A stretch of DNA of 64,000 nt from Ostrinia nubilalis (taxonomy: Eukaryota; Arthropoda; Insecta; Lepidoptera; Crambidae), in the NCBI RefSeq assembly GCF_963855985.1, contig NC_087095.1, positions 11,790,001 to 11,854,000 of the forward strand, given 5' to 3'. The translations under genes were made by a program, and so were the position numbers. The notes under the pieces are model-generated. The model was not told where the DNA came from. It saw only the letters and a list, made by a program, of their open reading frames with translations, and made no database searches. Shown here one piece after another: positions 1 to 63,522 of the stretch (position 1 is the first letter of the stretch; the number at the start of each line of letters is the position of its first letter).

Positions 1-1152
1 TATTATCAAAAGGGTGGTTTCATGCGAATTTGAAGAAAATATTTCACCCCCAAGGGTAGAACTTTTTTAATTTTTAGTTTTTTTTTTGTGTTCACGCATT
101 TGAAGTCGGTTTTATTTTTTTTAAAAGTTAATTATGGTATAAAATCTAAATTGCACCTCCAAATCAAAAAAACATTCTATCTTTTCACGCCAAAAATGCG
201 CCCCATTGTCTAAAAGGGGATAAAAAAATTATGAGAAACCCATAATTTATTACTTTCGGGATATTAATATTCATATTTTGTGCCCTCTTGAATAAAAACG
301 TAAGAATATCAAAAGATTTTTAACGATAAGTTTTGGGACCTACTCCAGGTATAAATAGGTATACTTGACATTTAGAAACCGGGGTATTTGACGTGTATCA
401 ATGGGGTATTTTCGGCACCCTGAGTAATTTAGTTTACCTGATTAAATATTAGTTCTAAACATTGATTTACAAACCAGTTGACACAATTAATTTCAGACAA
501 TGTACATACATACACAGAGCTGTTGGCAAGTATTGGTTTATGACCCTAAGCAAGGTTCGAATATAAATAGATCAATATTTATTTATAAATGATACGAATG
601 TAACACTTCACAAAGTAAAGTTCAACATTTCTTACCAAAGTAGAAATGAAATATACATAAAATTAAATGTCACAAAACAAAAAAGACTTAATTTTTGTTA
701 TAAGTACTCGTATTAATAGTACTTTTTCCGAGTCTTAATATCTACAGCGTTATTAATATTAGTAACTAGCGGCCGCCCGCGACTTTGAACGCGTGGATCC
801 CGTTTTATCCTCTTAGGGGTGGAGTTTCGTAAAATCCGTTCTTAGTGAGCACCTACGTTCTAAAAGGAAACCCCATGCAAACTTGAGACTCCTAGCACTT
901 GTACTTGTTTTTTACTTAATTCATTTTTACAGCTTCTTGAAAAATATTGTCTAGAAACGACTGACGCATATTTTGTGATAATAACAGCCTTATTTCATAT
1001 TAAAATTTCTTCTCGTTTAATATTATGCCTGTTACGAACGGCTCATCTGTACACCTGTCTGCAAGACTCCCCCTGACCCGAAGCCAGCACATTATGAACC
1101 ACCACGTCACGTCACAAAGTTAAATGAACTTTTAACTCTTTTGGTAGCCCAC
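1..1152. other. AT-rich non-coding stretch with an old dispersed-repeat fragment
   Basis: No reading frame here resembles a protein I know. The stretch at about 765-905 (GC-rich start near a NotI-like site, then a text about a G/C-rich 'gcgactt..cgcgtgga' core followed by 'aaaatccgttcttagtg') resembles the widespread lepidopteran repeat that also occurs at 37440-37690. The rest is low-complexity AT-rich DNA in which I see nothing definite. Confidence 0.5.
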
Positions 1153-1238
1153 CTTAAGGCCGGTCGTATCAATCTCTCCCGCTTTCTCTCTCTTTTCTTG
1201 ATATTCATATTCTATCATTGTTGAGAGAGAGGGAGAGA
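1153..1238 (+). mobile_element. 3' internal end of a BEL/Pao element (polypurine tract side)
   Basis: This matches the sequence just upstream of the LTRs at 3596 and 7113: the 'aaggccggtcgtatcaat' start, a pyrimidine-rich segment, then a polypurine run of GA repeats directly before the LTR. The LTR that follows is therefore the 3' LTR of an element whose body has been lost. No coding sequence of that element remains upstream. Confidence 0.7.
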
Positions 1239-1433
1239 TGTTACGAACGGCCTCTTTTGATAGCGTTTATGGTTTATATTTTTATATTTTTTCTATATGT
1301 CACTTGTCATCTTTCTGTCTCTTCTTTACCCTGTAATCCTGTATCTTCCTTTATTCCTCTTTTTTATTATATCGCTTTCCCTTCCTTGAGCCTGGGTATC
1401 ATTTTTATCCCTTTTCTATCCCAATTCCTAACA
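1239..1433 (+). repeat. BEL/Pao LTR copy 1 (195 bp)
   Basis: It starts TGTTACGAACGG and ends TTCCTAACA, so it has the TG..CA ends expected of an LTR. It follows a polypurine tract and shares its length and most of its sequence with the LTRs at 3596 and 7113. Its 5' third (the part with 'gatagcgtttatgg') differs from those two by several indels and instead matches the inverted fragment at 3790-3929. No primer-binding site is recognisable downstream; truncated pol sequence follows at once. Confidence 0.85.
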
Positions 1434-1439
1434 TTTTGT

Positions 1440-1628
1440 TTGCCAATTCCTCGGCAAAGCAAGCTGAAAAAGCTTCATGTGGTCCTTGGGGAGGACGGCC
1501 TACTGAGACTCTCAGGGCGTGTGGGAGCAATTACCGGCGTGCCAGATGCAATGAATTTTCCTATTATCTTGGATGGAACTCATCAAGCCGTGCGACTACT
1601 AATTGAGCACGAGCACCGTCGACTGGCC
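1440..1628 (+). pseudogene. Displaced BEL/Pao integrase N-terminal fragment
   Basis: This segment repeats the part of the pol frame found at about 5746-5936 (linker to integrase zinc-binding region, up to the 'HEHRRLA' codons) with no difference that I can see. It is then joined directly to sequence matching 5145 onwards, which lies upstream in the intact frame. The order of the two blocks is therefore wrong, and the fragment cannot encode a normal Pol. This is a rearrangement product, not a gene. Confidence 0.8.
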
Positions 1629-3473
1629 CAACTCAAAGAATGTTCTTGCTTGGCTACGAAGTGACGCGCGGTCATATCTTCCTTTTGTTGCGCACCGCCT
1701 GGCAGATATTTTGGAGCTTTCCACCATTGATGAGTGGCGTTGGGTTCCAACTGTGTTGAATGTCGCTGACGATGCCACCCGTCCTAACTCAAATACTCCC
1801 CTTCCTAACAGTAGATGGATTGAAGGTCCAGAGTTCTTGAAAGCCCCGTCTAGTGACTGGCCTGTTGAAATTTCTACCAGTGGGCACTTTAACACTGACG
1901 AGCTAAAACCAAGCGCTAGAATTAACCTCATTAACGTAGGTCATATTTCAACCACATCCATTATTCCATCTGTCATACCTTTGTGTGCGGATCCGTTCCG
2001 CTTCAGCCAATGGCTGCGTTTGCTCCGCTCTACAGCGCGCGCGCATTTGTACATCAGGAGCTTGAAAGGTAGAGCTAGTGTGTGCGCCTCAACCTCCCAC
2101 GCTCCTGGCTCTGTTAGCTCTACTAAACTTATGCCGCTGTCTGCCGATGATATGTACATCGCCCGGTCTTTCTCCAGGCCCAAGTGGACTCCTTTCAAGA
2201 AGAAATGGCTGCTATACGCCAAGGTTTGCCAATTCCTCGGCAAAGCAAGCTGCAAAAGCTTCATGTGGTCCTTGGGGAGGACGGCCTACTGAGACTCTCA
2301 GGGCGTGTGGGAGTAATTACCGGCGTGCCAGATGCAATGAATTTTCCTATTATCTTGGATGGAACTCATCAAGCCGTGCGACTACTAATTGAGCACGAGC
2401 ACCGTCGACTAGCCCATGGCAATAATGAAACCGTCGTGAACGAGCTACGCCAGGAGTTTTTCATCTTAAACCTTAGAAGCACCGTCAGATCTGTGGGGCA
2501 CAGGTGTCAATTTTGCCGTATCAGGAAAGCAACCGCTGTGATTCCTCCTATGGGAAATCTACCTGCTTCCCGTCTAACCCACCATTGTCGTCCTTTCACG
2601 TGTGTTGGACTAGATTACTTCGGCCCCGTCCAGGTGACGATTGGCAGGCGGCACGAAAAACGGTATGTCGCCTTGTTTACGTGCCTGACGACCCGGGCAG
2701 TTCATTTGGAAGTTGTGCACGATCTGTCAACTGACGCCGCGATAATGGCTTTACGTCGGTTTGTAGCCCGTCGAGGCACGCCTAAGGAGATCTGGTCGGA
2801 TAATGGAACTAGCTTTGTTGGAGCGACGAAATTCCTTCGCGAGCTCTATGGTCCAAAATTGAACGACTTCACTGTCAACAACGGAATAGAATGGCGTTTC
2901 ATACCGCCTTCGGCGCCTTCAATGGGCGGAGCTTGGGAGCGCTTAGTGCGTTCCGTTAAAACGGCCCTTAAAGTGATCCTCAAGGACAGAGCCCCTAAAG
3001 AACCGATATTCACCACCCTTCTCGTTGAGGCGGAGGCAATCGTGAATTCAAGACCACTAACGCACGTTCCGGTTGGACAAGAAGGTGACGAAGCTCTCAC
3101 ACCATTTCATTTTCTGATCGGGACTTCCTCAACGGGAAACCATCATGTCGGCGCCGTCCCTCAAGACTTGTATGGTAGAACCGCTTGGAGGAAGACTGTG
3201 AGACTGGCGGATCTCTTTTGGCAGAGGTGGCTGAAAGAATACCTTCCAACCCTCGTTCCTCGGCGCAGCGGCAGCGAGGTTGAAGGAACCCCTCTCAGTG
3301 TGGGTGACCTCGTCCTTATTGTTGACGGGAATTTGCCGCGGGGAACTTGGCCCAGAGGTCGAGTAAAGAAACTGTTTCCGGGTGGAGATAACGTTGTTAG
3401 AGTGGCCGAGGTCTCCACAGCGGGAGGGGTGTTACGAAGACCGTTAAGAAAACTTGTTCGGTTGCCTGTCTGA
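1629..3473 (+). pseudogene. BEL/Pao pol fragment, RNase H end to integrase C-terminus (frameshifted)
   Basis: Collinear with 5145-6994 of the longer copy. A 7-bp deletion near 2168, between short direct TCT repeats, shifts the frame, so RNase H-linker codons (frame from 1603) and the integrase (2184-3473, 429 codons) are in different frames. The integrase part keeps its zinc-binding region (HEHRRLAH and CQFC), the core with YFGP and SDNGTSF, and the GGAWERLVRS glutamate motif. About ten base differences separate it from the longer copy over the integrase part. Reverse transcriptase, protease and gag are absent. Confidence 0.85.
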
Positions 3474-3595
3474 AGGCCGTTGTATATACATACTGTGTAT
3501 ATCCCATTTTAAAAGGCCGGTCGTATCAATCTCTCCCGCTCTCACTCTTGTCCTTTGATACTCGTATTATATCATTGTTGAGAGAGAGGGAGAGA
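3474..3595 (+). other. BEL/Pao 3' untranslated region with polypurine tract
   Basis: A short segment follows the integrase stop. It holds a pyrimidine-rich stretch and the GA-rich polypurine tract (about 3577-3595) that abuts the LTR and would prime plus-strand synthesis. The 'aggccggtcgta' segment near 3513 is an imperfect inverted match to the PPT/LTR junction. Confidence 0.7.
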
Positions 3596-3787
3596 TGTTA
3601 CGAACGGCCTCCTTTTAATAGTCTGTTTTTATAATTTTATTTTTTGTCTATGATTGTCTTCTTGTCATCTGTCTCTTCTTTACCCTGTAATCCTGTATCT
3701 TCCTTTATTCCTCTTTTTTATTATATCGCTTTCCCTTCCTTGAGCCTGGGTATCATTTTTATCCCTTTTCTATCCCAATTCCTAACA
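3596..3787 (+). repeat. BEL/Pao LTR copy 2 (192 bp)
   Basis: TGTTACGAACGG start, CCTAACA end, preceded by a polypurine tract. Its 3' half is nearly identical to the other LTRs, but its 5' third has several small indels against LTR copies 1 and 3. It ends directly against an inverted LTR fragment, so it serves as the 3' LTR of the pseudo-element at 1440-3473. Confidence 0.85.
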
Positions 3788-3789
3788 TT

Positions 3790-3929
3790 TTTAGGAATTG
3801 GGATAGAAAAGGGATAAAGGAAGATACAGGATTACAGGGTAAAGAAGAGACAGAAAGATGACAAGTGACATATAGAAAAAATATAAAAATATAAACCATA
3901 AACGCTATCAAAAGAGGCCGTTCGTAACA
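3790..3929 (-). repeat. Inverted BEL/Pao LTR fragment with internal deletion
   Basis: Reverse complement of LTR copy 1, running from 'ttaggaattggg' to 'ccgttcgtaaca', with about 55 bp missing in the middle. Where present it matches copy 1 rather than copies 2 and 3. Head-to-head with copy 2 it forms a palindrome-like junction. It replaces the normal 5' LTR, leader, gag and protease of the pol copy that follows. Confidence 0.8.
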
Positions 3930-3931
3930 TC

Positions 3932-6900
3932 ATGACCACTGACTCTTCAAGGGAGTGGTACCTTCCCCATTTCGGAGTCGTGAACCCTAATAAGCCCGGT
4001 AAGTTACGGGTTGTCCATGATGCTGCTGCCTGTGTCCAGGGAACTAGTCTTAATTCCCTTTTATTGAGTGGTCCTGATCTATTGTCGTCGCTCATTGATA
4101 TAATTTACCGGTTTCGAGAAGATGAGGTTGCCATGACAGCTGATATCAGGGAGATGTTTCCTCAAATTAAGATTAGATCCCAGGACAGGGATGCACAGCG
4201 TTTCTTGTGGCGTGATTCTCCCAATTTGCCGATCTCAATATTTCGCATGTATTCTATGATCTTCGGCGCTGCATCCAGCCCGTTTACAGCACTTTATATT
4301 AAAAACAAAAATGCAGAGGAGAATCGAAATTCATTCCCTGAAGCCGCTCATGCTATCGTCCACGACACTTATATGGACGATTATATAGGTAGTGTAGACC
4401 AAGTTGAAAAAGCGGCTCACTTAGCAAAAGATATCGTGGATGTACAAAAGCGAGCTCATTTTGAAGTTCGTGGTTGGGTATCGAATAAACCTGAGGCTCT
4501 CGCTCTTGTGCCTTCCGAACTTAAGCTTGTAAATAATACTTCTGTAGATATTAGTAATCATCAGCAAAGCGTGCGTACACTTGGCCTTATTTGGTACCCC
4601 ATATCTGATCAGCTCGGTTTTAATACCGCTGCTTTAAAACCTTTCGCTTTGCCATCTAAGATCACTAAACGCAACGCGCTTTCCGTACTAATGCGTGTAT
4701 TTGACCCACTTGGTATGCTTGCTCCAATCACTATTAGAGGTCGCATCATTTTCCAAGTATTGTGGCGTAGGAAAGTAGAATGGGACGAAGCTCTGCCTCA
4801 GGATTTGCTTTCTCAGTGGATGGCTTGGCTTTCATTAATGTCATCGGCTGTTGAGCTTCGTATTCCTCGTTGGCATTCCAGGGTAGCTAACTTGCTAGAG
4901 CGCGAATTGCATGTATTTTGTGATGCCAGTGAGCATGCTTATGTTGCGGTAGCTTATTGGCGCCTACTTTTTGCTGATAATCAAATTCAGCTCTCATTCA
5001 TATGTAGCAAATCAAAAGTTTCACCGTTAGCCCCTACAACGATTTCTCGCTTAGAATTACAAGCTGCTATGGTTGCTGCTCGCTTAGCTTCATCAATATG
5101 TGAAGCTCACAAGTACAAGCCAGTGCGCAGGTTTTTTTGGACGGACTCAAAGAATGTTCTTGCTTGGCTACGAAGTGACGCGCGGTCATATCTTCCTTTT
5201 GTTGCGCACCGCCTGGCAGATATTTTGGAGCTTTCCACCATTGATGAGTGGCGTTGGGTTCCAACTGTGTTGAATGTCGCTGACGATGCCACCCGTCCTA
5301 ACTCAAATACTCCCCTTCCTAACAGTAGATGGATTGAAGGTCCAGAGTTCTTGAAAGCCCCGTCTAGTGACTGGCCTGTTGAAATTTCTACCAGTGGGCA
5401 CTTTAACACTGACGAGCTAAAACCAAGCGCTAGAATTAACCTCATTAACGTAGGTCATATTTCAACCACATCCATTATTCCATCTGTCATACCTTTGTGT
5501 GCGGATCCGTTCCGCTTCAGCCAATGGCTGCGTTTGCTCCGCTCTACAGCGCGCGCGCATTTGTACATCAGGAGCTTGAAAGGTAGAGCTAGTGTGTGCG
5601 CCTCAACCTCCCACGCTCCTGGCTCTGTTAGCTCTACTAAACTTATGCCGCTGTCTGCCGATGATATGTACATCGCCCGGTCTCACATCTTTCTCCAGGC
5701 CCAAGTGGACTCCTTTCAAGAAGAAATGGCTGCTATACGCCAAGGTTTGCCAATTCCTCGGCAAAGCAAGCTGAAAAAGCTTCATGTGGTCCTTGGGGAG
5801 GACGGCCTACTGAGACTCTCAGGGCGTGTGGGAGCAATTACCGGCGTGCCAGATGCAATGAATTTTCCTATTATCTTGGATGGAACTCATCAAGCCGTGC
5901 GACTACTAATTGAGCACGAGCACCGTCGACTGGCCCATGGCAATAATGAAACCGTCGTGAACGAGCTACGCCAGGAGTTTTTCATCTTAAACCTTAGAAG
6001 CACCGTCAGATCTGTGGGGCACAGGTGTCAATTTTGCCGTATCAGGAAAGCAACCGCTGTGATTCCTCCTATGGGAAATCTACCTGCTTCCCGTCTAACC
6101 CACCATTGTCGTCCTTTCACGTGTGTTGGACTAGATTACTTCGGCCCCGTCCAGGTGACGATTGGCAGGCGGCACGAAAAACGGTATGTCGCCTTGTTTA
6201 CGTGCCTGACGACCCGGGCAGTTCATTTGGAAGTTGTGCACGATCTGTCAACTGACGCCGCGATAATGGCTTTACGTCGGTTTGTAGCCCGTCGAGGCAC
6301 GCCTAAGGAGATCTGGTCGGATAATGGAACTAGCTTTGTTGGAGCGACGAAATTCCTTCGCGAGCTCTACGGTCCAAAATTGAACGACTTCACTGTGAAC
6401 AACGGAATAGAATGGCGTTTCATACCGCCTTCGGCGCCCTCAATGGGCGGAGCTTGGGAGCGCTTAGTGCGTTCCGTTAAAACGGCCCTTAAAGTGATCC
6501 TCAAGGACAGAGCCCCTAAAGAACCGATATTCACCACCCTTCTCGTTGAGGCGGAGGCAATCGTGAATTCAAGGCCACTAACGCACGTTTCGGTTGGACA
6601 AGAAGGTAACGAAGCTCTCACACCATTTCATTTTCTGATCGGGACTTCCTCAACGGGAAACCATCATGTTGGCGCCGTCCCTCAAGACTTGTATGGTAGA
6701 ACCGCTTGGAGGAAGACTGTGAGACTGGCGGATCTCTTTTGGCAGAGGTGGCTGAAAGAATACCTTCCAACCCTCGTTCCTCGGCGCAGCGGCAGCGAGG
6801 TTGAAGGAACCCCTCTCAGTGTGGGTGACCTCGTCCTTATTGTTGACGGGAATTTGCCGCGGGGAACTTGGCCCAGAGGTCGAGTAAAGAAACTGTTTCC

Positions 6901-6994
6901 GGGTGGAGATAACGTTGTTAGAGTGGCCGAGGTCTCCACAGCGGGAGGGGTGTTACGAAGACCGTTAAGAAAACTTGTTCGGTTGCCTGTCTGA
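3932..6994 (+). CDS. BEL/Pao Pol polyprotein, partial (reverse transcriptase, RNase H, integrase)
   Basis: An open frame of 1020 codons encodes the 3' two thirds of a BEL/Pao Pol. In order: reverse transcriptase starting at the WYLPHFGVVNPNKPGK segment (residues 9-24), first catalytic Asp in ADIREMF (about 71), the YMDD box at 147-150; an RNase H region with FCDASEHAYVAVAY at about 328; then integrase with an HEHRRLAH / CQFC zinc site, YFGP near 737, SDNGTSF near 795 and GGAWERLV near 838 (DDE). Gag and the aspartic protease are missing and the frame simply opens at an ATG just inside the inverted LTR fragment, so this start is probably not natural. Known for the family: Pol copies the RNA in the particle and inserts the cDNA. 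Inferred: without gag, protease or a proper 5' LTR the copy is not autonomous. Confidence 0.93.
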   Translation: MTTDSSREWYLPHFGVVNPNKPGKLRVVHDAAACVQGTSLNSLLLSGPDLLSSLIDIIYRFREDEVAMTADIREMFPQIKIRSQDRDAQRFLWRDSPNLPISIFRMYSMIFGAASSPFTALYIKNKNAEENRNSFPEAAHAIVHDTYMDDYIGSVDQVEKAAHLAKDIVDVQKRAHFEVRGWVSNKPEALALVPSELKLVNNTSVDISNHQQSVRTLGLIWYPISDQLGFNTAALKPFALPSKITKRNALSVLMRVFDPLGMLAPITIRGRIIFQVLWRRKVEWDEALPQDLLSQWMAWLSLMSSAVELRIPRWHSRVANLLERELHVFCDASEHAYVAVAYWRLLFADNQIQLSFICSKSKVSPLAPTTISRLELQAAMVAARLASSICEAHKYKPVRRFFWTDSKNVLAWLRSDARSYLPFVAHRLADILELSTIDEWRWVPTVLNVADDATRPNSNTPLPNSRWIEGPEFLKAPSSDWPVEISTSGHFNTDELKPSARINLINVGHISTTSIIPSVIPLCADPFRFSQWLRLLRSTARAHLYIRSLKGRASVCASTSHAPGSVSSTKLMPLSADDMYIARSHIFLQAQVDSFQEEMAAIRQGLPIPRQSKLKKLHVVLGEDGLLRLSGRVGAITGVPDAMNFPIILDGTHQAVRLLIEHEHRRLAHGNNETVVNELRQEFFILNLRSTVRSVGHRCQFCRIRKATAVIPPMGNLPASRLTHHCRPFTCVGLDYFGPVQVTIGRRHEKRYVALFTCLTTRAVHLEVVHDLSTDAAIMALRRFVARRGTPKEIWSDNGTSFVGATKFLRELYGPKLNDFTVNNGIEWRFIPPSAPSMGGAWERLVRSVKTALKVILKDRAPKEPIFTTLLVEAEAIVNSRPLTHVSVGQEGNEALTPFHFLIGTSSTGNHHVGAVPQDLYGRTAWRKTVRLADLFWQRWLKEYLPTLVPRRSGSEVEGTPLSVGDLVLIVDGNLPRGTWPRGRVKKLFPGGDNVVRVAEVSTAGGVLRRPLRKLVRLPV

Positions 6995-7112
6995 AGGCCG
7001 TTGTATATACATTATGTACATCCCATTTTAAGGCCGGTCGTATCAATCTCTCCCGCTCTCACTCCTTTCCTTTGATACTCGTATTCTATCATTGTTGAGA
7101 GAGAGGGAGAGA
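6995..7112 (+). other. BEL/Pao 3' untranslated region with polypurine tract
   Basis: Same organisation as 3474-3595: 'ggccggtcgtatcaatctc' segment, pyrimidine-rich middle and a GA-rich polypurine tract (about 7093-7112) touching the LTR. Confidence 0.7.
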
Positions 7113-7310
7113 TGTTACGAACGGCCTCCTTTTAAGTCTATGTTTTTATAATTTTATTTTTTTCTATGGTTTGTCTTCTTGTCATCTGTCGCTGTCTCTT
7201 CTTTACCCTGTAATCCTGTATCTTCCTTTATTCCTCTTTTTTATTATATCGCTTTCCCTTCCTTGAGCCTGGGTATCATTTTTATCCCTTTTCTATCCCA
7301 ATTCCTAACA
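7113..7310 (+). repeat. BEL/Pao LTR copy 3 (198 bp), right end of the cluster
   Basis: TGTTACGAACGG to TTCCTAACA. This is the 3' LTR of the longer pol copy. Sequence after 7310 is unrelated, so this is the right boundary of the retroelement cluster. No matching target duplication was found on the left, as expected given the rearrangements. Confidence 0.87.
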
Positions 7311-35042: not shown

Positions 35043-36394
35043 CGGCCGAATACTGAAACGCTACTCAAATCTTTCACTCAGCTGACGGGCTCCTAAATTT
35101 AAGTATCCTTCAATTTTAAATGGTATTCTCAAACGCCACTCAACGGATTTGAAGCCGTGATCAGCTAAGAAGTGGGTCTAGACAAAGTGCAAATTATGAT
35201 CGCAAACCAGTCGAAAAGTGGTCGAAAAGCCCCTTTTTTGTATGGAGTTTTGACAGATTCGATTTTCGATTCGATCAAAAAGTGCGTTTTGTCTAGGGGG
35301 GCAGCTCTCAAATGTTTACATAATGGCAACATTTACCAAAAAAAGTATGTTTTCATTTACACAAATGATAACTTTGCGTTTTTTATCCATTACACGCAGC
35401 ATCGTTTGTTTATGTATTGTCTTTTATGGAAATATACTCAATCAACTTAACATAGAACAGTTTATTTTTAGTTTCTATTATATATAAATCTCGTTTTGTC
35501 ATATAAAAAAATTAATGCTTGCATTTTTATTTAATTAAAAAAATAATTTTAAAGGTGATACTTTTTATTGTTGAAATCTATTAAGTGGCGATCGTGGACC
35601 GAAACGTAACCACAATTGACATTTATCATTGTTGACAGAGCATCAAATTGACAAATCAACAACTCTTGGAAATGCTGCTACTTATGCGATGTCCCCTTAT
35701 TCCTCAGAAATAGGCATGTTTATGTATTGCGGTTTCATAGCAGCTATTTTGGTTGTTACTTCGTGCACTATATGATGCACAGTTGGTTGTTAGATGTGGA
35801 AGATATCACCTAGTACACGTTCATAACTTCCCGTTGCGTAAAACAGTAGGGTTATAACGGTTATAATAAGTATTTGGTCCACTGGTTGTATGGCGTTTGG
35901 TGACGGGTTTCAAAGAGCTTCCAAATTATGAATCCAGAAACAACACCGTTTCTTTAGAGACGCGGAACCTCGCTCGGAATTGCATGTCATTATAATAATA
36001 TTTTTCAATAGCGTTCAGCCTTATTGCGTTCCTGCGATTAGATCTAGGTATTTCCTCAAGGCTCGAAAGAAATGATAACGATGACACACATTATTTACCA
36101 CTATTTAGGTCGATTTAGGTATAAGAATAGGATTTAAGATACCGGGCAAGCACTCTCAAATTTAACAGCTGCTTAAGACGATTTGACAGTTGTTTGAGTA
36201 ATGCTTAGCGTTGAATGGCGTTTCAGTATGCGAAAATTCATTTGAGTGGCGTTTAAGTGCAACTTAATTTGAGAGGTGCTTACAAATTGAGAACTGCTCA
36301 GATATTGTTTTGAGTATGCGAAATGTAAGTTTAGGAGCTGCTTAACTATTTGAGAAGCCGTCAAATATTTAAATGGCGTTTCAGTATTCGGCCG
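35043..36394 (-). mobile_element. PIF/Harbinger-family element III, nested in II, TTA duplication
   Basis: TIRs CGGCCGAATACTG / CAGTATTCGGCCG with TTA at 35040-35042 and 36395-36397. It split element II at 'aggattTA/agatacc', a site intact in element I. Holds the same subterminal repeats and a degenerate transposase relic (about 35690-35960, minus strand). A 130-bp insertion lies at 35169-35301. Confidence 0.85.
35169..35301. mobile_element. Small MITE inside element III
   Basis: Interrupts the text 'tcagctaa/gcagctctc' that is continuous in elements I and II. Ends show GTCTAGACAAAGTGC and GCGTTTTGTCTAG, weak inverted repeats. Confidence 0.6.
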
Positions 36395-36658
36395 TTAAGA
36401 TACCGCGCAAGCACTCTCAAATTTAACGGCTGCTCAAGACGATTTGACAGTTGTTTGAGTAATGCTTAGCGTTGAATGGCGTTTCAGTATTCGAAAATTC
36501 ATTTAAGTGGCGTTTGAGTGCAACTTAATTTGAGAGGTGCTTAAAAATTGAGAACTGCTCAGATATTGTTTTGAGTATGCGAAATGTAAGTTTAGGAGCT
36601 GCTTAACTATTTGAGAAGCCGTCAAATATTTAAATGGCGTTTCAGTATTCGGCCGTCT

Positions 36659-54774: not shown

Positions 54775-54809
<35 letters not shown>

Positions 54810-57800: not shown

Positions 57801-60800
57801 GACACCCAAAGTAGTCAAAAAGTACACAGCACGTCTTTGTTACATTGGAATGAGATTGTGTTTTCCACTTTTTGGCCACTTTGGATGTCCAACTATTTGA
57901 CGCGGACTGTACATGCTTATGATAGTACAATTTGGAACTAATATCTGCCATCAGACCAGTAAGACTATATTAACTATTTGTGCCATTTCTAAAACATCTC
58001 ACCTCAGTCTTTTCATCAATCATCCTGCACGGTGGTATTGGTTCGTCACTGGCCATCTTGTCAATCAAATACTGCTGATAATGGTCTTCATACAGTGCCA
58101 ATTTCGCGCCGTCAATCTTTTTGTAGCGGCGTGCACCTATCTTGCATTGTTCCCAAATGATACCGGAGCTATTAGAAAAAAAAAAGAGAACAATTATAAA
58201 ACTAATAAAACTAAAAAACAGTTGTATAATTTTTGACAATAATTATATTGTAAACATCTGTCAAATGTTGATTTCTTAACAATGAAAAGAAACCCAACAC
58301 TAATTTAGTTAAAAGAGAGTATACAGGGTGTCCCAGAAGGGGTGAACCAAACTGCTATGGGAAGTAGTTTGACCTCTCACTCACCCTTAAAAATATGAAT
58401 TTTTTTTTTTGGCTATAGGGTAATTATTGAAATTCTACTTACTTGGAAATGCTAATGTAAACAATCTCCAGCAACTCAGGGTCATTGACCAGAGATAGAC
58501 CCATTCCTTGCATAGACAACACGATTTCAGTATCCACGAATTCGGCTTCGCCTATCGTGTGGGCGCCACTCGCTAGATTCGGATCGTCAGTGAACAAGAT
58601 AACCCTTTGAAGTCCGTCCAGGAAAGATACCCAGGATACCCGGTTAGTTTCGTTAATCCTAAAAACGTATCATCATTATTATATTTCCATAACAAGACGC
58701 TGTAAAAGAAAATAGCGAAAAGGTACTTTAATTATTTAAAGTAATCTACATTTATCATATGAGATATAGAGACGTCAACTAATACGCTGAGTTCGAAACT
58801 CAGTGTCGCATTAGAAATTCACACACACAAAGTAATCAAAAAATGTGCTCATTATCCACTGCGGTATTACTACTCAACGTTCGAATAATCTTTAGTACTA
58901 CGCAAGCAATGTAAACTGTTTACATTATGACGTCGCTGCTGTCATCATTGCTATTAGCGAGCAATGTGTTCTGTTTTTGGGCATATTGCTACGACACCGG
59001 CCTCGCCCCCTTGTCACATCTGCCTTTAGTTTCTGTGATCTGTGACTTTTATAGATCTCGTACTTACATGAAATCTCCGATTCCATCCTTTCTCAAGTCA
59101 TTTTCGATTTCTTTCTTCTTGTAGCCTTCAAATATAAGTGAGCGCGGTCCAGCCGGGTTGTCCCACGTGAACAACATTTTGTGCATCGATTCCAGTTTTC
59201 TGAAACAAAAACACATGGTTAAATGGCGAAGTGCACACAGCACGTCTAACTGACACTGTAGGGTCTTATTCGGTCGTAAAAGGGACTGTTTTGCAGCGAA
59301 AATGTATAGTTTGATGTGATGTAATCTATACATGGATGATGAAGTCATAAAATGGCCTTACTTTGGTTACTTAAGTTTACCTTTTTAAAACACAGTTTTG
59401 ATAACTACGCTTCTAGTTTCCATCAGCTCCGATATCTTAATCAGTTTAATTTCCAGTCCGCAATACGGAAATAACATAATAGCACTACATCCGAGCCGTG
59501 AATCGTGATAAAATCTTGTCGATTATTTTAGTCGACAAACGTATGGGCTTATCACGTAAAATCGACAAAATGGCGCGATAAAAGCTAAAGCTTGGTCCGT
59601 GAGCACGTAGAATTTTGTCCAATGACCCCAATCCACCCATCTTTATCGCTCGCGCGTAATTATATTGCTGTCGCGACTGTGCGACGGGCGCCCGCAGTGA
59701 GTGTGCGAGCGCGACAGCAACATAATTACGCGCGAGCGATAAGGGTAGCTTGGGGTCATTGGACAAAATTCTACGTGCTCATGGACCAGGCTTTAGGCTT
59801 GTACAACTCACTTGACGTTGACGGTCTCCTTCTCGTAAACAACGACGGGGAACTGCGTGAAGTTGACGAGCAGTCTAGATATTAGCACGTCACTACCTTG
59901 TTTAATATACCACGCAATCTTGTATACCCATTCTTATGATACACCATACAAGAATGCATGGTAAATTCAGTGAACTGCTCCTGAATCGAATGTACCTACT
60001 ACTACTATTTATTTATATTAACCGGCAGACAGTGGTGACTGAGTTTGTTGCGGCGCTTCTTCTCAGCACTTGCCAAATGTTGGTCTCGAAGCGCTGGTAG
60101 GGTAAAAAGATTATGAGACATGTAGAGGCTCCTTAAGAGCATATGACGATTTGTAAGAACTATTTATTAGTCTAAACAAATAAAGAAATTTTGACTTTGA
60201 GCGCCGGCGCGTGCCCGTCGCGGTACTGGCGCACCGTGATGTAAGTACCTCCTTCGCTTAGCTGCACCTCTACGTGGAGACCGCCGTACTGTAAGGGTTA
60301 ACTCGAGAACACTGCGAGACACTCACTTGACGTTGACGTTCGCCTTGATGACGTGCAGCCCGCCGCACTGTAAGGGTTAACTCGAGAACACTGCGAGACA
60401 CTCACTTGACGTTGACGTTCGCCTTGATGACGTGCAGCCCGCCGCACTGTAAGGGTTAACTCGAGAACACTCCGAGACACTCACTTGACGTTGACGTTCG
60501 CCTTGATGACGTGCAGCCCGCCGCACTGTAAGGGTTAACTCGAGAACACTCCGAGACACTCACTTGACGTTGACGTTCGCCTTGATGACGTGCAGCCCGC
60601 CGCACTGTAAGGGTTAACTCGAGAACACTCCGAGACACTCACTTGACGTTGACGTTCGGCTTGATGACGTGCAGCCCGCCGCACTGTAAGAGTAGGCGCA
60701 CACCGTTGATTTATAGTTGACCGATAGTTGTGCCCGATTTTAATTTGTATGAAGAATCGGCCAAATTGAATCGGCGTAGTGTGCGCACTCCCATACATGC

Positions 60801-63522
60801 CCAACTGCCCGACTAAACTATCGGCCGACGAAAAATCAACGGTGTGCGCCTACTCGAGAACACTCTAAGGGTTTACTCGAGAACACTAGGAGACACTCAC
60901 TTGACGTTGACGTTCTCCTTCTCGTAGACGACGACGGGGAACCGCGTGAAGTTGACGAGCAGCGCCGGCGCGTGCCCGTCGCGGTACTGGCGCACCGTGA
61001 TGTATGTACCTCCCTCGCTTAGCTGCACCTCTACGTGGAGACCGCCGTACTGTAAGGGTTAACTCGAGAACACTTCGAGACACTCACTTGACGTTGACGT
61101 TCACCGTGATGACGTGCGACGCACTATAAAGGTTAACTCGAGAACACTGCTCCACACTCACTTGACGTTGACCTTCGCCTTGATGACGTGCAGCGCGCCG
61201 CACTGTAAGGGTTAACTCGAGAACACTGCGAGACACTCACTTGACGTTGACGTTCACCGTGATGACGTGCAGCCCGCCGCACTGTAAGGGTTAACTCGAG
61301 AACACTGCTCCACACTCACTTGACGTTGACCTTCGCCTTGATGACGTGCAGCGCGCCGCACTGTAAGGGTTAACTCGAGAACACTGCGAGACACTCACTT
61401 GACGTTGACGTTCACCGTGATGACGTGCAGCCCGCCGCACTGTAAGGGTTAACTCGAGAACACTCCGAGACACTCACTTGACGTTGACCTTCGCCTTGAT
61501 GACGTGCAGCCCGCCGCACTGTAAGAGTAGGCGCACACCGTTGATTTATAGTTGACCGATAGTTGTGCCCGATTTTAATTTGTATGAAGAATCGGCCTAA
61601 TTGAATCGGCGTAGTGTGCGCACTCCCATACATGCCCAACTGCCCGACTAAACTATCGGCCGACGAAAAATCAACGGTGTGCGCCTACTCTAAGGGTTTA
61701 CTCTAGAACACTGCGAGACACTCACTTGACGTTGACGTTCTCCTTCTCGTAGACGACGACGGGGAACCGCGTGAAGTTGACGAGCAGCGCCGGCGCGTGC
61801 CCGTCGCGGTACTGGCGCACCGTGATGTATGTACCTCCCTCGCTTAGCTGCACTTCTACGTGGAGACCGCCGTACTGCAAAGGTTTTAAGGTTGATTATC
61901 ATAATCATTTCAGCCAAAAGAAGTAAAGATGAGTATAGACTAGAGGTTTTCTATGTAATGTAATGTAAGTCAATTTCTCTGAACCTAAGACTGTGTCCCG
62001 ATCGCGTGGCAGGTCACCAATGCGCTGGACCGACCAAGTGAAAGCAGCAGTGGGAGACGGCTTATGTGACTGCACCAGACAGTCTGCCAATAGAGAGAGA
62101 TGGAGGGAGATCGTGCGAAGAGTTGTATCCGCCTCTACAACCGATGTGAACAACGCCTCAACGTGACCACGACCGCTCTGCCAAGAGCGTAACGAATAAG
62201 AAGAAGAAGACTGTTTATCGAGCTAGCAACTTCGCTCTTTTGACACTCCACAGTTTGCGTGAAATTGTCAGCTTGCGAAGGGTGGATTCGACCAAACAAG
62301 AGTAAATATTAATCTCAGAAAAAATCGTCACTTATCGACATTTTGACATATTTCCCATACTGAAACTGTCAATGTGCCAGTTATACCAGGAATTATTCTC
62401 AGATAAGTTTGGTCGAATCGGACCCAACTGTCATAGGTGCAGAGAAATCGGCTTTGTGACGACTAGTCTAGACGGTCTAGGACCTTGTAACAGAAGGGAG
62501 TCTCCTCTACAATACAGGTAAAATGTACGATGTGGATCGTGAAAGGGAAAGATACACTAGAACACACCATAGAGGGGCTCGTTTTTCTGTTACAAGTAAA
62601 TGCTCTAGGTCTATACTCACCTTTAAATTAAGAGCTGTCATTGCTATTGCATCACACATAATATGTAATGAGAAAAGCGTCTATCAATAATAAAGGAAAT
62701 ACTCACGTCGTTATTCAACTTCAAGCAGACGCTGTGTTGTTCGGTATACAAGAACGGCGCAGCGTGTTCGGTTGATCCTGACACCCGCAATAACAACAGT
62801 TTGTCTTCCTTGTCTATGACTGGCCATAGAGGCGCGCTGGAGTTTTGATCCACCTACAGATTGAAAATTTAATTATTGACCTATCAAACTTATTTTTCTA
62901 AAACTTTATGAATCTCTTAAATTGGTTTCATACCTCTTTCCACGGATCCCCAGATCGGTGTAACTCTTGATATTGAATAGCAAACGGCGCTTCATTGATT
63001 ATGAGGAAGAATGGCGTAAACACGACCATTTTTGTCAAACTGTTGAATGTCAGTTGGTTTGTCACTGCCACCTAATAAATAACAATTGTTTTTAAAACCT
63101 TTACTCTTTTGTAATAGGTGAGGGCTATCGTTTTAGTTCACAAGTTGGCGCCAATGTATAGTGAAATAGTGACGCTATTGGTAACTGCTGTAGGAGGACT
63201 GTCGCATTTGCACTGACCAGCAATGTGCCTCTGTAGAGTAACTCGCCAGTGGTACCAACTGTTAAGGATAATAACGATAGTCGATAGCCCTCATTACGTC
63301 ATATGATATGTTACATACCTGGTACGTCCTACCCTCATGTTTACACAACACCAAGCCCGAGCTTCCGGGGACATCTAGCGGGAATTTGTCGGACCATTCC
63401 CCGAACTCCACGCGAATGGCTGCCTTTTTCTTGCCGAAAAAGTTTTTCGCCCGGAACGAGAACAGAATCGGCTCTTTGTATTCCTTCGGGTGGCATATCA
63501 CGTTGCCCGTCTCATCCAGGTT
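46558..63522 (-). CDS. Vps13: Vps13, C-terminal part (18 exons visible, 5' end beyond window)
   Basis: Spliced minus-strand gene. Eighteen exons join in frame to about 946 residues ending in a stop. Protein order: [13 protein letters not shown] region and following segments of the VAB (SHR-BD/DUF1162) part; then the VPS13_C region ([41 protein letters not shown]); then a C-terminal PH-like part ending in LMRSAR. Known for the family: a very long bridge protein moving lipids between membranes at organelle contacts; the VAB part binds adaptors, the C-terminal part contacts lipid droplets or mitochondria. The sequence matches the VPS13A/C type, as in the single insect Vps13. Sum of exon lengths (2841 bp) is a multiple of three, a check on all junctions. 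Two exons have alternative copies (see 50574, 51834 and 59812-61874). Confidence 0.96.
47981..48300. mobile_element. Fold-back module, copy 2 (320-bp near-perfect palindrome)
   Basis: ATCCCATCAAAAACAATACT at the left is mirrored exactly at the right. The arms are about 146 bp with a loop of about 27 bp (48108-48150 region). This is the empty-site version of 41546-42256. As part of a Vps13 intron its transcript would form a long hairpin. Confidence 0.88.
48301..48785. mobile_element. Tail module of the fold-back composite, copy 2
   Basis: Same as 42257-42833 but with a single copy of the 105-bp block. GTGAGTCA microsatellite near 48505-48545, terminal hairpin GGGGGCAC-TGCC-GTGCCCCC at 48762-48781. 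Shared sequence with copy 1 stops at about 48785, only about 5 bp from the Vps13 splice donor at 48791. Confidence 0.75.
48792..48917 (-). CDS. Vps13: Vps13 exon, PH-like region
   Basis: 42 codons, phase 0 to 0: [39 protein letters not shown]. The CTDKRLL..KN..GGWQ text is a hallmark of the VPS13 C-terminal domain. Acceptor CACCAG, donor CAG/GTATGAAT. Confidence 0.95.
49368..49494 (-). CDS. Vps13: Vps13 exon, VPS13_C to PH-like linker
   Basis: 127 bp, takes one base to finish the AG/G codon. Encodes [39 protein letters not shown]. Donor AAG/GTAAGT. The AG-ending of either upstream alternative exon gives Arg here. Confidence 0.95.
49495..50573 (-). other. Vps13 intron, nothing recognised
   Basis: About 1.1 kb AT-rich; no repeat with clear ends. 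Confidence 0.5.
50574..50743 (-). CDS. Vps13: Vps13 alternative exon B (VPS13_C region)
   Basis: 170 bp, phase 0 to 2: [51 protein letters not shown]. Acceptor TCACATAG, donor AAAAG/GTTATT. It encodes the same segment as exon A at 51834-52003, with 30 of 56 residues identical, same length and same phases. Joining A to B shifts the frame, so an mRNA should use one. B lacks the TKP of A and of most VPS13 proteins (LRP instead). Confidence 0.85.
50744..51833 (-). other. Intron between the two alternative Vps13 exons
   Basis: About 1.1 kb. Contains the fold-back MITE at 51601-51739 close to exon A. Confidence 0.7.
51601..51739. mobile_element. Fold-back MITE between the alternative exons
   Basis: CTTCAACCACACCAACGCGT at the left is mirrored by GCACGCGTTGGTGTGGTTG at the right; inner arms (GCCAATGACAGGTCGCGCG / CGCACGACCTGTCTTTGGC) are also mirrored. 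The whole unit folds into one hairpin. Confidence 0.75.
51834..52003 (-). CDS. Vps13: Vps13 alternative exon A (VPS13_C region)
   Basis: 170 bp, phase 0 to 2: [49 protein letters not shown]. This is closer to the usual VPS13 text (GVTGVxTKPxxGA..GFFKGxGKG..RPTGGVVDFAS). Acceptor AAAACAG, donor AAGAG/GTTCGA. Confidence 0.93.
52375..52464 (-). CDS. Vps13: Vps13 exon, VPS13_C region
   Basis: 30 codons, phase 0 to 0: [29 protein letters not shown]. Acceptor CATGACAG, donor ATG/GTATGT. The LARSGKG text is conserved in the family. Confidence 0.95.
52827..52976 (-). CDS. Vps13: Vps13 exon, VPS13_C region
   Basis: 50 codons, phase 0 to 0: [44 protein letters not shown]. Acceptor TTATTCAG, donor AAG/GTACGT. 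Confidence 0.96.
53351..53546 (-). CDS. Vps13: Vps13 exon, start of VPS13_C core
   Basis: 196 bp, phase 2 to 0: [60 protein letters not shown]. LGLDVxGNP and YEPFQ are family signatures. Acceptor TTTCCCAG, donor CAG/GTTTGT. Confidence 0.97.
53653..53762 (-). CDS. Vps13: Vps13 exon
   Basis: 110 bp, phase 0 to 2: [35 protein letters not shown]. Acceptor TTGTTTTAG, donor TTCAA/GTAAGT. Confidence 0.95.
53836..53955 (-). CDS. Vps13: Vps13 exon
   Basis: 40 codons, phase 0 to 0: [34 protein letters not shown]. FYDxLHLSPLK is typical. Acceptor TTGTTGCAG, donor AAG/GTAAGT. Confidence 0.95.
54400..55465. mobile_element. TIR element of about 1.07 kb with CRE-like TGACGTCA near both ends
   Basis: The left 220 bp and right 230 bp are diverged inverted copies: GCGTGACGTCACTATATCCG and its partner GGATATAATGACGTCATCG, 'aaactatcagttttaga', 'atttattcatcaaaataaag', 'attgtgaaaaataa'. 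Exact ends and target duplication not defined. No transposase frame. Confidence 0.65.
54744..54855 (+). repeat. Poly-G tract in degenerate CCCAGCTTCTGGCC repeats
   Basis: A run of 33 G (54776-54808) preceded by a run of 10-12 G at 54758-54769, between three diverged copies of ACCCAGCTTCTGGCC. The G strand is the template strand of Vps13. Length in the assembly may be unreliable. Confidence 0.8.
55617..55792 (-). CDS. Vps13: Vps13 exon
   Basis: 176 bp, phase 1 to 0: [54 protein letters not shown]. The KPF-V-S-I-V and Y-K-V-L-I-Q-E text is well conserved in VPS13 proteins. Acceptor CCCACAG, donor GCG/GTACGT. Confidence 0.96.
55793..57028 (-). other. Vps13 intron with inverted repeat and retroelement tail
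   Basis: About 1.2 kb. 56660-57000 holds an inverted pair around a retroelement tail; the rest is AT-rich. Confidence 0.6.
56660..57000. mobile_element. Inverted pair around a retroelement tail
   Basis: 'atggcggcgatacatat' near 56668 is mirrored by 'atatgtatcgccgccat' near 56972-56990, with 'cttgcatacc'/'catgcaag' text inside each arm. Between the arms lies a copy (56755-56905) of the retroelement tail found at 7840 and 60030. Confidence 0.6.
57029..57251 (-). CDS. Vps13: Vps13 exon
   Basis: 223 bp, phase 0 to 1: [69 protein letters not shown]. Matches the F-R-x-R-x-x-x-x-Q-I-D-x-Q segment of VPS13. Acceptor CTTTACAG, donor AGCG/GTAAGT. Confidence 0.93.
57326..57689. mobile_element. GC-rich PIF/Harbinger-type MITE, TTA duplication
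   Basis: GGCTAAGAACTCACGGCGCG at the left is mirrored exactly at the right; TTA at 57323-57325 and 57690-57692. 364 bp, GC-rich interior with CpG-dense blocks, in the intron between exons 57029 and 58003. Open frames inside are composition artefacts. Confidence 0.85.
57779..57909. mobile_element. MITE with CAGTCGGCACCAAATA ends, TA duplication
   Basis: CAGTCGGCACCAAATAAATC at the left, TATTTGACGCGGACTG at the right, TA on each side. 131 bp. A diverged relative lies at about 29258-29372. Confidence 0.7.
58003..58168 (-). CDS. Vps13: Vps13 exon
   Basis: 166 bp, phase 2 to 0: [48 protein letters not shown]. The 'SxGIIWE' text follows ISISN of the preceding exon as in other VPS13 proteins. Donor GAG/GTGAGA. 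Confidence 0.95.
58324..58430. repeat. Truncated CAGGGTGTCCCAGAA repeat
   Basis: Starts TACAGGGTGTCCCAGAAGGG, a start common to several insect dispersed repeats; no right end is visible before the exon at 58443. Confidence 0.45.
58443..58658 (-). CDS. Vps13: Vps13 exon
   Basis: 216 bp, phase 2 to 2: [68 protein letters not shown]-x-D-G-L-Q-R-x-I-L-F-T is a clear VPS13 signature. Acceptor GTTTTTAG, donor TCCAA/GTAAGT. Confidence 0.97.
58659..59067 (-). other. Vps13 intron, nothing recognised
   Basis: About 0.4 kb, no repeat with clear ends. Confidence 0.5.
59068..59199 (-). CDS. Vps13: Vps13 exon
   Basis: 132 bp, phase 2 to 2: [37 protein letters not shown]. Its first base completes the AA/A codon left by the [12 protein letters not shown] exon or a mini-cassette. 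Acceptor TTGTTTCAG, donor TTCAT/GTAAGT. Confidence 0.95.
59588..59794. mobile_element. Fold-back MITE in a Vps13 intron (AAAGCTTGGTCC ends)
   Basis: AAAGCTTGGTCCGTGAGCAC at the left is mirrored at the right; inner TTATCGCTCGCGCGTAATTA arms are mirrored too. About 207 bp, hairpin-forming. Confidence 0.75.
59812..60288 (-). pseudogene. Vps13: Vps13 YGGLHVEV exon, copy 3, split by a retroelement
   Basis: Two blocks, 60202-60288 (87 bp: [15 protein letters not shown] to HAPAL) and 59812-59873 (62 bp: [20 protein letters not shown]), add up to exactly 149 bp, the size of intact copies. The 328 bp between them is a retroelement tail. Acceptor CTTACAG and donor AA/GTGAGT survive. Unless the insert is removed as an intron the exon cannot be used. 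Confidence 0.85.
59874..60201 (+). mobile_element. Retroelement tail inserted in exon copy 3
   Basis: Plus-strand copy of the family at 56755 and 7840 ('gtgactgagtttgttgcggc', 'cttcttctcagcact', 'ctggtagggtaaa'), ending in 'aataaagaaattttgacttt' right at the exon text. No clear target duplication. Confidence 0.7.
60289..60689 (-). repeat. Vps13 mini-exon array, block 1 (five 79-bp units)
   Basis: Tandem 79-bp units, each reading on the minus strand: TTAACCCTTACAG acceptor, a 41-bp exon-like core, AA/GTGAGTGTC donor, then a 38-bp spacer shared with the next unit. Cores: 60327-60367, 60406-60446, 60485-60525, 60564-60604, 60643-60683. Four of the five read [13 protein letters not shown] plus AA, phase 0 to 2; the core at 60643-60683 carries one C-to-G change ('ttcggcttg' on the plus strand). 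These are the ends of the 149-bp exon with the middle removed. Confidence 0.85.
60690..60855. mobile_element. 166-bp MITE in the exon array, copy 1
   Basis: GAGTAGGCGCACACCGTTGA at the left is mirrored exactly at the right. It interrupts the array unit after CTGTAAG. The copy at 61525 differs at one or two bases and has the same position in its unit, so both come from duplication of a larger block. Confidence 0.85.
60901..61049 (-). CDS. Vps13: Vps13 YGGLHVEV exon, intact copy 2
   Basis: 149 bp, phase 0 to 2: [49 protein letters not shown] plus AA. Acceptor CTTACAG, donor AA/GTGAGTG. It differs from copy 1 by one silent base that I can see. Either copy would link NND of the previous exon to KLESM of the next in frame; both together would not. 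Confidence 0.8.
61050..61524 (-). repeat. Vps13 mini-exon array, block 2 (six units)
   Basis: Cores: 61088-61123 (36 bp, degenerate), 61162-61202, 61241-61281, 61320-61360, 61399-61439, 61478-61518 (41 bp each), all at 79-bp spacing after the first. Variants alternate: [13 protein letters not shown] in 61241 and 61399 (keeping ITV of the full exon) and CG(A/G)[10 protein letters not shown] in 61162, 61320 and 61478, so a 158-bp higher-order unit is visible. All 41-bp cores keep acceptor, donor and phase 0 to 2. Confidence 0.85.
61525..61690. mobile_element. 166-bp MITE in the exon array, copy 2
   Basis: Same element and same relative position as 60690-60855. Confidence 0.85.
61726..61874 (-). 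CDS. Vps13: Vps13 YGGLHVEV exon, intact copy 1
   Basis: 149 bp, phase 0 to 2, first of the array in the direction of transcription. Encodes the same 49 codons as copy 2. Its acceptor CCTTTGCAG differs from the CTTACAG of every other unit, which suggests that this is the ancestral exon and that the rest of the array came from a later copy. The text ([19 protein letters not shown]) fits the VAB/SHR-BD part of VPS13. Confidence 0.92.
61999..62215 (+). pseudogene. LINE ORF2 C-terminal fragment in a Vps13 intron
   Basis: The plus strand reads 55 codons to TGA at 62164: [39 protein letters not shown]-x-x-R-W-x-D-x-(I/V) followed by N-R-x-x-W-R is the usual C-terminus of insect non-LTR (RTE/Jockey-like) reverse transcriptases. 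It ends in AAGAAGAAGA, a degenerate tail. The copy is truncated at its 5' side. Confidence 0.75.
62280..62425. mobile_element. MITE with GGGTGGATTCGACCAAAC ends
   Basis: GGGTGGATTCGACCAAAC at the left, mirrored with small differences by GTTTGGTCGAATCGGACCC at the right. 146 bp, in a Vps13 intron. Confidence 0.75.
62707..62853 (-). CDS. Vps13: Vps13 exon
   Basis: 49 codons, phase 0 to 0: [48 protein letters not shown]. Joins the YGGLHVEV exon in frame. Acceptor ATCTGTAG, donor GAC/GTGAGT. Confidence 0.95.
62934..63071 (-). CDS. Vps13: Vps13 exon
   Basis: 46 codons, phase 0 to 0: [44 protein letters not shown]. Acceptor TTATTAG, donor GAG/GTATGA. Confidence 0.95.
63319..63522 (-). CDS. Vps13: Vps13 exon, first in the window
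   Basis: 68 codons, phase 0 to 0: [73 protein letters not shown]-x-L-D and G-S-S-G are diagnostic of the VAB/SHR-BD part of VPS13. Acceptor TCGTTTCAG, donor CAG/GTATGT. The upstream exons, with the chorein N-terminus, lie beyond 64000. Confidence 0.97.

Follow-up and report, generated by a model that had tools for sequence, protein, structure and literature searches.

A tandem array of full-length and miniature copies of one VPS13 exon in Ostrinia nubilalis

Mutually exclusive exons are recognized by homology, a shared phase, a length that is not divisible by three, and linkers that are too short to splice, according to the available part of one study (PMC5740500). As far as that source describes them, clusters such as exons 4, 6, and 9 of Dscam1 and the human mutually exclusive clusters share tandem homologous exons, phase, non-triplet length, and short linkers with the array reported here (PMC5740500). 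In contrast to those clusters, most cassettes of our array are deletion products that lack the domain core, and we found neither a docking element in the flanking introns nor a synonymous excess among the miniature cassettes (i.e., minis). Minisatellites with higher-order repeats are a second relative, and they have the 79-bp unit, the 158-bp period, the near-identical neighbours, and the block duplication in common with our locus; here, however, each unit comprises an acceptor, an exon, and a donor, a complete cassette from a conserved gene. A Caenorhabditis elegans minisatellite is reported to be over-represented near regions of alternative splicing, and the available part of that report does not describe it as exon copies (PMC4039745). 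Known tandem duplications with inherited splice signals share that trait with the VPS13 array, while here the copies are many and there is no demonstrated new intron. The available part of a study of Drosophila Gr39a likewise describes the gain and loss of exon copies at a single complex locus, but those are alternative exons of a chemosensory gene whereas ours are miniatures of one internal exon (PMC2204066). No VPS13 exon array was named in the titles and abstract openings of the open-licence literature that we searched, and its novelty is not proven. We consider it likely that the array is a young, exon-derived minisatellite that is expanding locally, that the mRNA needs one full exon, and that the minis are mostly skipped or serve as decoys.

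The host gene and its exon array

The window (i.e., the whole 64,000-nt stretch analysed, positions 11790001-11854000 of contig C8 in a genome of 495,445,069 bases and 52 contigs) encodes the C-terminal part of VPS13 on its minus strand. VPS13 is a lipid-transfer gene, and its protein family is linked to human neurological disease. Our first spliced model, with 18 exons and 946 residues, matched the Pfam families VPS13_VAB (PF25036, 64.3 bits) and VPS13_C (PF25037, 92.6 bits) and the human chains VPS13C (690.3 bits) and VPS13A (649.6 bits). These matches place it in the VPS13 family and support the gene name given by the first-pass annotation; the host gene is a VPS13 of the A/C type. The best protein match, at 99% identity, was P0001, a predicted Vps13 isoform X2 of O. 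nubilalis (2764 residues, short at its N-terminus). Mapping of P0001 on the window plus a further 60 kb (124 kb joined) yielded 53 exons and 52 GT-AG introns, the shortest being 73 nt when introns of at least 40 nt were sought. P0001 includes a 27-nt micro-exon encoding ARGMPNIVG (56585-56559, minus strand) that is missing from the 18-exon model. Elsewhere in the window, a run of 33 Gs lies within a VPS13 intron (plus strand, 54776-54808), and positions 1148-7310 of the plus strand are Bel-Pao-type retrotransposon sequence, in which long open frames occur together with a 2,171-bp repeat at 98% identity.

Between the upstream neighbour E3 (62707-62853; 147 bp, phase 0-0, from the gene model matching P0001) and the downstream neighbour E5 (59068-59199; 132 bp, its first base finishing the split codon in the gene model), a pattern search recovered 14 minus-strand cassettes of one 149-bp VPS13 exon. 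These are two intact full copies, one split full copy, ten 41-bp minis, and one 36-bp mini, the inventory previously annotated. F1 (61726-61874; 149 bp, phase 0 to 2), which is also in the gene model, has the native upstream acceptor and is followed by the 41-bp minis m1 (61518-61478), m2 (61439-61399), m3 (61360-61320), m4 (61281-61241), and m5 (61202-61162) and by the degenerate 36-bp m6 (61123-61088). F2 (60901-61049; 149 bp), with an array-type acceptor, is followed by the 41-bp minis m7 (60683-60643), m8 (60604-60564), m9 (60525-60485), m10 (60446-60406), and m11 (60367-60327). The third full copy, F3, is split into a 5' part (60200-60288), placed by the cassette search and alignment, and a 3' part (59812-59873), placed by the cassette search and its sequence, with the native downstream donor context GTGAGTTGT. 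A single site of 149, exon position 21, separates F1 from F2; the difference is synonymous, and the encoded protein is the same; the score of the mapping script picked F1 over F2 for P0001.

The cassettes have AG acceptors and GTGAGT donors, and 14 of 14 end in CAA/GTGAGT, a donor that the search pattern demanded. The earlier claim of intact splice signals and one shared phase throughout holds for 12 of the 13 unsplit cassettes (phase 0 to 2 in all those of 149 and 41 bp) but fails for m6, which has an ATAG acceptor and, by the frame check, a broken frame. The spacing described between adjacent cassettes, 38 nt, was found in 10 of the 12 gaps among the unsplit cassettes, while the gaps after F1 (207 nt) and F2 (217 nt) are longer because each contains a MITE. 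Tandem Repeats Finder reported a period of 79 (scores 776 and 796) and a higher-order period of 158 bp (score 861), a repeat structure far beyond chance. The 79-bp unit is a 41-bp mini plus a 38-bp linker, and m2 to m5 alternate as the 158-bp higher-order repeat. Identical minis occur within blocks (m2 and m4, m8 and m9, m10 and m11) while the minis of the two blocks differ from each other; head-to-tail units with homogenized neighbours are the pattern of a minisatellite. When the whole genome was searched with the exon, 15 of 15 matches fell at this locus, using a tool that passes over very common words.

Genome searches revealed two kinds of transposable element in the array, both read on the minus strand. 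MITE copy 1 (61525-61690; 166 bp, terminal inverted repeats of about 40 bp) lies after F1, is flanked by TTA on both sides, and ends 3 nt ahead of the CAG of m1. MITE copy 2 (60690-60855), in the matching linker after F2, is identical to copy 1 at 165 of 166 positions and has 10 extra bases on one side compared with it. There were 319 first-look candidates for the MITE genome-wide, 40 of which were scored; three further copies were aligned, with TTA at both flanks in two and TAA plus TTA in one. F3 is split by a high-copy element (59874-60199, boundaries read from the sequence) with 1,922 first-look candidates genome-wide; the other copies that were scored (n=39) show 98-99% identity. Visual inspection of the F3-E5 intron also revealed a long inverted repeat at 59800-59600, perhaps another MITE.

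Protein content and coding constraint

The product of the full exon, 49 residues and a split codon, falls near the end of the VAB domain. Its Asn in LLVNFT aligns with LLINHT of VPS13A and sits 42 residues ahead of the Trp in RRLKW. The available parts of two reports place N2418 and W2460 of VPS13A in VAB repeat 6 (PMC10053439, PMC7999203), and since these two residues have the same spacing of 42, we infer that the exon Asn corresponds to N2418. The full exon and this Asn are kept in 120 of 120 homologues (the best 120 of 697 matches), and P0001 includes the full exon. The minis are 108 bases shorter and remove 36 of the 49 full codons, the invariant Asn included. Leaving the exon out entirely gives a frameshift to a stop.

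One rival to the minisatellite reading is a working switch, in which one mini replaces the full exon to give in-frame VPS13 from which the VAB repeat 6 core, invariant Asn included, is missing. The 38-nt linkers would exclude neighbours, and transcripts that combine the wrong cassettes would be eliminated as nonsense. In favour of the switch, the lost Asn aligns with the putative N2418, whose change weakens SNX5 binding in the available part of one report (PMC10053439), and without it VPS13 would no longer bind organelle adaptors. However, the 36 residues that would be lost are kept in 120 of 120 homologues among the matches listed, and for the same reason the minis do not offer alternatives for the same protein region as mutually exclusive exons do. 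We regard a functional switch as possible but unsupported, and on balance unlikely.

Variation among the copies bears on the same question. Among the ten 41-bp minis, with m6 left out, we counted 0 synonymous and 5 replacement variants, an outcome with a probability of 0.24 under neutrality and 0.0007 at an omega of 0.1 (expected replacement fraction 0.75). These ten minis have no synonymous excess and no sign of purifying selection, which argues against a switch. The full copies carry 5 synonymous and 2 replacement variants, with both replacements in the split F3 and two bases at its break left out; minis and full copies differ at a Fisher p of 0.028, a contrast based on 12 changes in all that are not fully independent. 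On the side of the switch, the first 18 bases of the minis differ from F2 by 3 synonymous changes and 1 replacement. This 3:1 difference suggests that the mini precursor may have been constrained, for example while it was still a full exon. Overall, the features of the array at present appear to be those of weak or no coding constraint.

We also searched for the docking sequences of Dscam-type selection. The best duplexes between one linker probe and the two flanking introns were within shuffled controls (n=60, single bases shuffled in 20-base blocks, dinucleotides not kept), and no docking sequence was found in these two introns, a further point against the switch. The Dscam-like choice of one cassette that the first-pass annotation proposed is thus not borne out, given the docking result, the lack of purifying selection among the minis, and the loss of 36 residues conserved in all homologues listed.

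Splice sites, spacing, and reading frame

Ten array acceptors score 4.54, which is the 17th percentile of the 52 acceptors of the gene and the 90th percentile of 726 decoy AGs, on a scale that tells real from decoy sites only moderately. The native acceptor of F1 scores 3.06 (8th percentile of the 52, 83rd of the decoys), that of m6 scores 2.98, and array donors score 8.35, the 35th percentile of the donors of the gene. We rejected weak acceptors as the cause of skipping; since ten array acceptors outscore the native one of F1, the strength of the splice sequence alone does not predict skipping. The other option raised by the first-pass annotation, a non-functional array that splicing must skip, is the best fit even though the splice-site scores do not themselves predict it. 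For a switch, the acceptors are of mixed value: those of 8 of the 10 minis with an open junction are within the range of the real sites of the gene, but those of m1 and m7 (0.98) are lower than any of the 52 and are located at a predicted hairpin. The predicted folds from F1 to m1 (-89.9 kcal/mol) and from F2 to m7 (-92.5 kcal/mol), computed without a shuffle control, are MITE hairpins that extend to approximately 5-6 bases ahead of the m1 and m7 exons.

The 38-nt linkers are approximately half as long as the shortest intron of the gene (73 nt). They contain TTAAC, which is branch-like by consensus, with its A 28 nt from the donor. Approximately 50 nt from donor to branch A is cited as needed in human in the available part of one source (PMC6692369), and less than 50 nt serves as a steric criterion against joint inclusion in that of another (PMC5740500). 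Neighbouring cassettes should therefore be too close to splice together, as annotated for the 38-bp gaps, while non-adjacent cassettes could be spaced widely enough. We enumerated chains of one to four of the 13 unsplit cassettes, with the split F3 left out and introns of at least 73 nt, and found open in-frame products for 12 of 13 singles, 10 of 68 pairs, 0 of 184 triples, and 115 of 276 quadruples. The phase logic behind the earlier claim that only one cassette is usable in frame is supported, but "only one" is too strong: joint inclusion of neighbours should be blocked by the linkers, yet the open pairs and quadruples remain. Among single inclusions, the E3-mini-E5 junction is open and in frame for 10 of the 11 minis, a point in favour of the switch.

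The same enumeration offers some support for a dosage element, in which the extra donors and acceptors divert part of the pre-mRNA to frameshifted multi-cassette products and the length of the array tunes the level of VPS13 via nonsense-mediated decay. When introns are required to be 73 nt or longer, 58 of 68 pairs and 184 of 184 triples lose the frame or run into a stop, and most array splice sites score on par with those of F1, but 115 quadruples stay open; we consider this reading improbable. Also unlikely is a splice array that amplifies itself and whose minis each serve as a ready in-frame "adaptor-off" exon. Any of the ten would delete the adaptor-binding Asn of VAB repeat 6 while the rest of the lipid bridge is kept, and the share of VPS13 that fails to be recruited to organelles would depend on the number of repeats.

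Elsewhere in the gene, two 170-bp exons on the minus strand, E15a (52003-51834) and E15b (50743-50574), are both of phase 0 to 2 and identical at 30 of 56 residues, and including both or neither breaks the frame. Among the homologues in the best 120 of 697 matches, one, P0018 from Spodoptera exigua, is clearly of the E15b type (44 of 57 residues identical to E15b, 37 of 57 to E15a). The acceptor of E15b has a lower score than any of the 52 gene acceptors. E15a and E15b are candidates for a conserved mutually exclusive pair and may be a better case of mutual exclusion than the array.

Origin of the array

The minisatellite reading implies a sequence of events. The exon of VAB repeat 6, with a few intron bases on each side, would have been duplicated in tandem with a 38-bp linker. 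One copy then presumably lost 108 internal bases, and its unit of exon ends plus linker, which is the observed 79-bp unit, would have been amplified. A MITE inserted in the linker behind a full exon, and the block of full exon, MITE, and minis was duplicated. We place the block duplication after the MITE insertion because the same MITE is in the corresponding linker of both blocks, and the two block copies are near-identical (1 of 166 sites between the MITEs, 1 of 149 between F1 and F2). The insertion of the high-copy element that splits F3 is probably a later event. The acceptor context is native at F1 and the donor context is native at F3, the pattern that tandem duplication predicts, which indicates that everything between them was duplicated.

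That the minis derive from the 149-bp exon, as annotated, is supported, and two routes to them fit the sequences. The ITV-type minis keep 9 exact internal bases and would reflect two in-frame deletions; the IK[A/P]-type minis resemble the 3' end of the exon (EKENVNV). Since 8 of the 10 intact minis are of the latter type, the internal ITV cited as showing derivation by deletion is better described as suggestive.

In a working mRNA, F1 or F2 would be joined once between E3 and E5, and the minis are probably skipped pseudo-exons or weak decoys despite their usable-looking splice sites. Neighbours are too near to splice to each other, the predicted MITE hairpins would cover the region of the m1 and m7 acceptors, and many multi-cassette products are frameshifted and would be removed as nonsense transcripts. 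Several features count against this reading: ten of the 11 minis keep the frame, most array acceptors score at least as well as the native one of F1, and F1 and F2 encode the same protein while no tested feature accounts for both not being included.

Tandem duplications nearby, two that overlap exons and two elsewhere, were counted in favour of the minisatellite reading. Outside the window, at C8:11875620-11876439 (L016; 85620-86439 of the joined 124 kb), the 3' part and donor of another VPS13 exon are repeated approximately 4 times with a period of approximately 220 bp, and P0001 starts inside this exon. At C8:11872583-11873252 (L015; about 82583-83252 of the joined 124 kb), a further VPS13 exon is preceded by a partial duplicate of itself, which includes the acceptor and runs into other DNA. 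The remaining two are a 261-bp tandem duplication at 97% identity (36134-36656) and one at 120418-120675 of the joined 124 kb. That the repeat was expanded during assembly is very unlikely: assemblies are known to be weak at tandem repeats, but the unit differences are ordered (m2 to m5 alternate and the minis of the two blocks differ), transposable elements of two kinds lie inside the array, and the array itself is within a 17.79-Mb contig of a 52-contig genome.

Our data suggest that this locus shows a tandem exon array caught in an intermediate state: 2 kb of a conserved gene contain full exons, deletion miniatures, transposon hits, and a block duplication. The locus is a natural setting in which to ask how splicing deals with 14 competing cassettes and whether arrays of this kind start out as neutral repeats. 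If the minis are used, they would be a natural adaptor-binding knock-out of VPS13.
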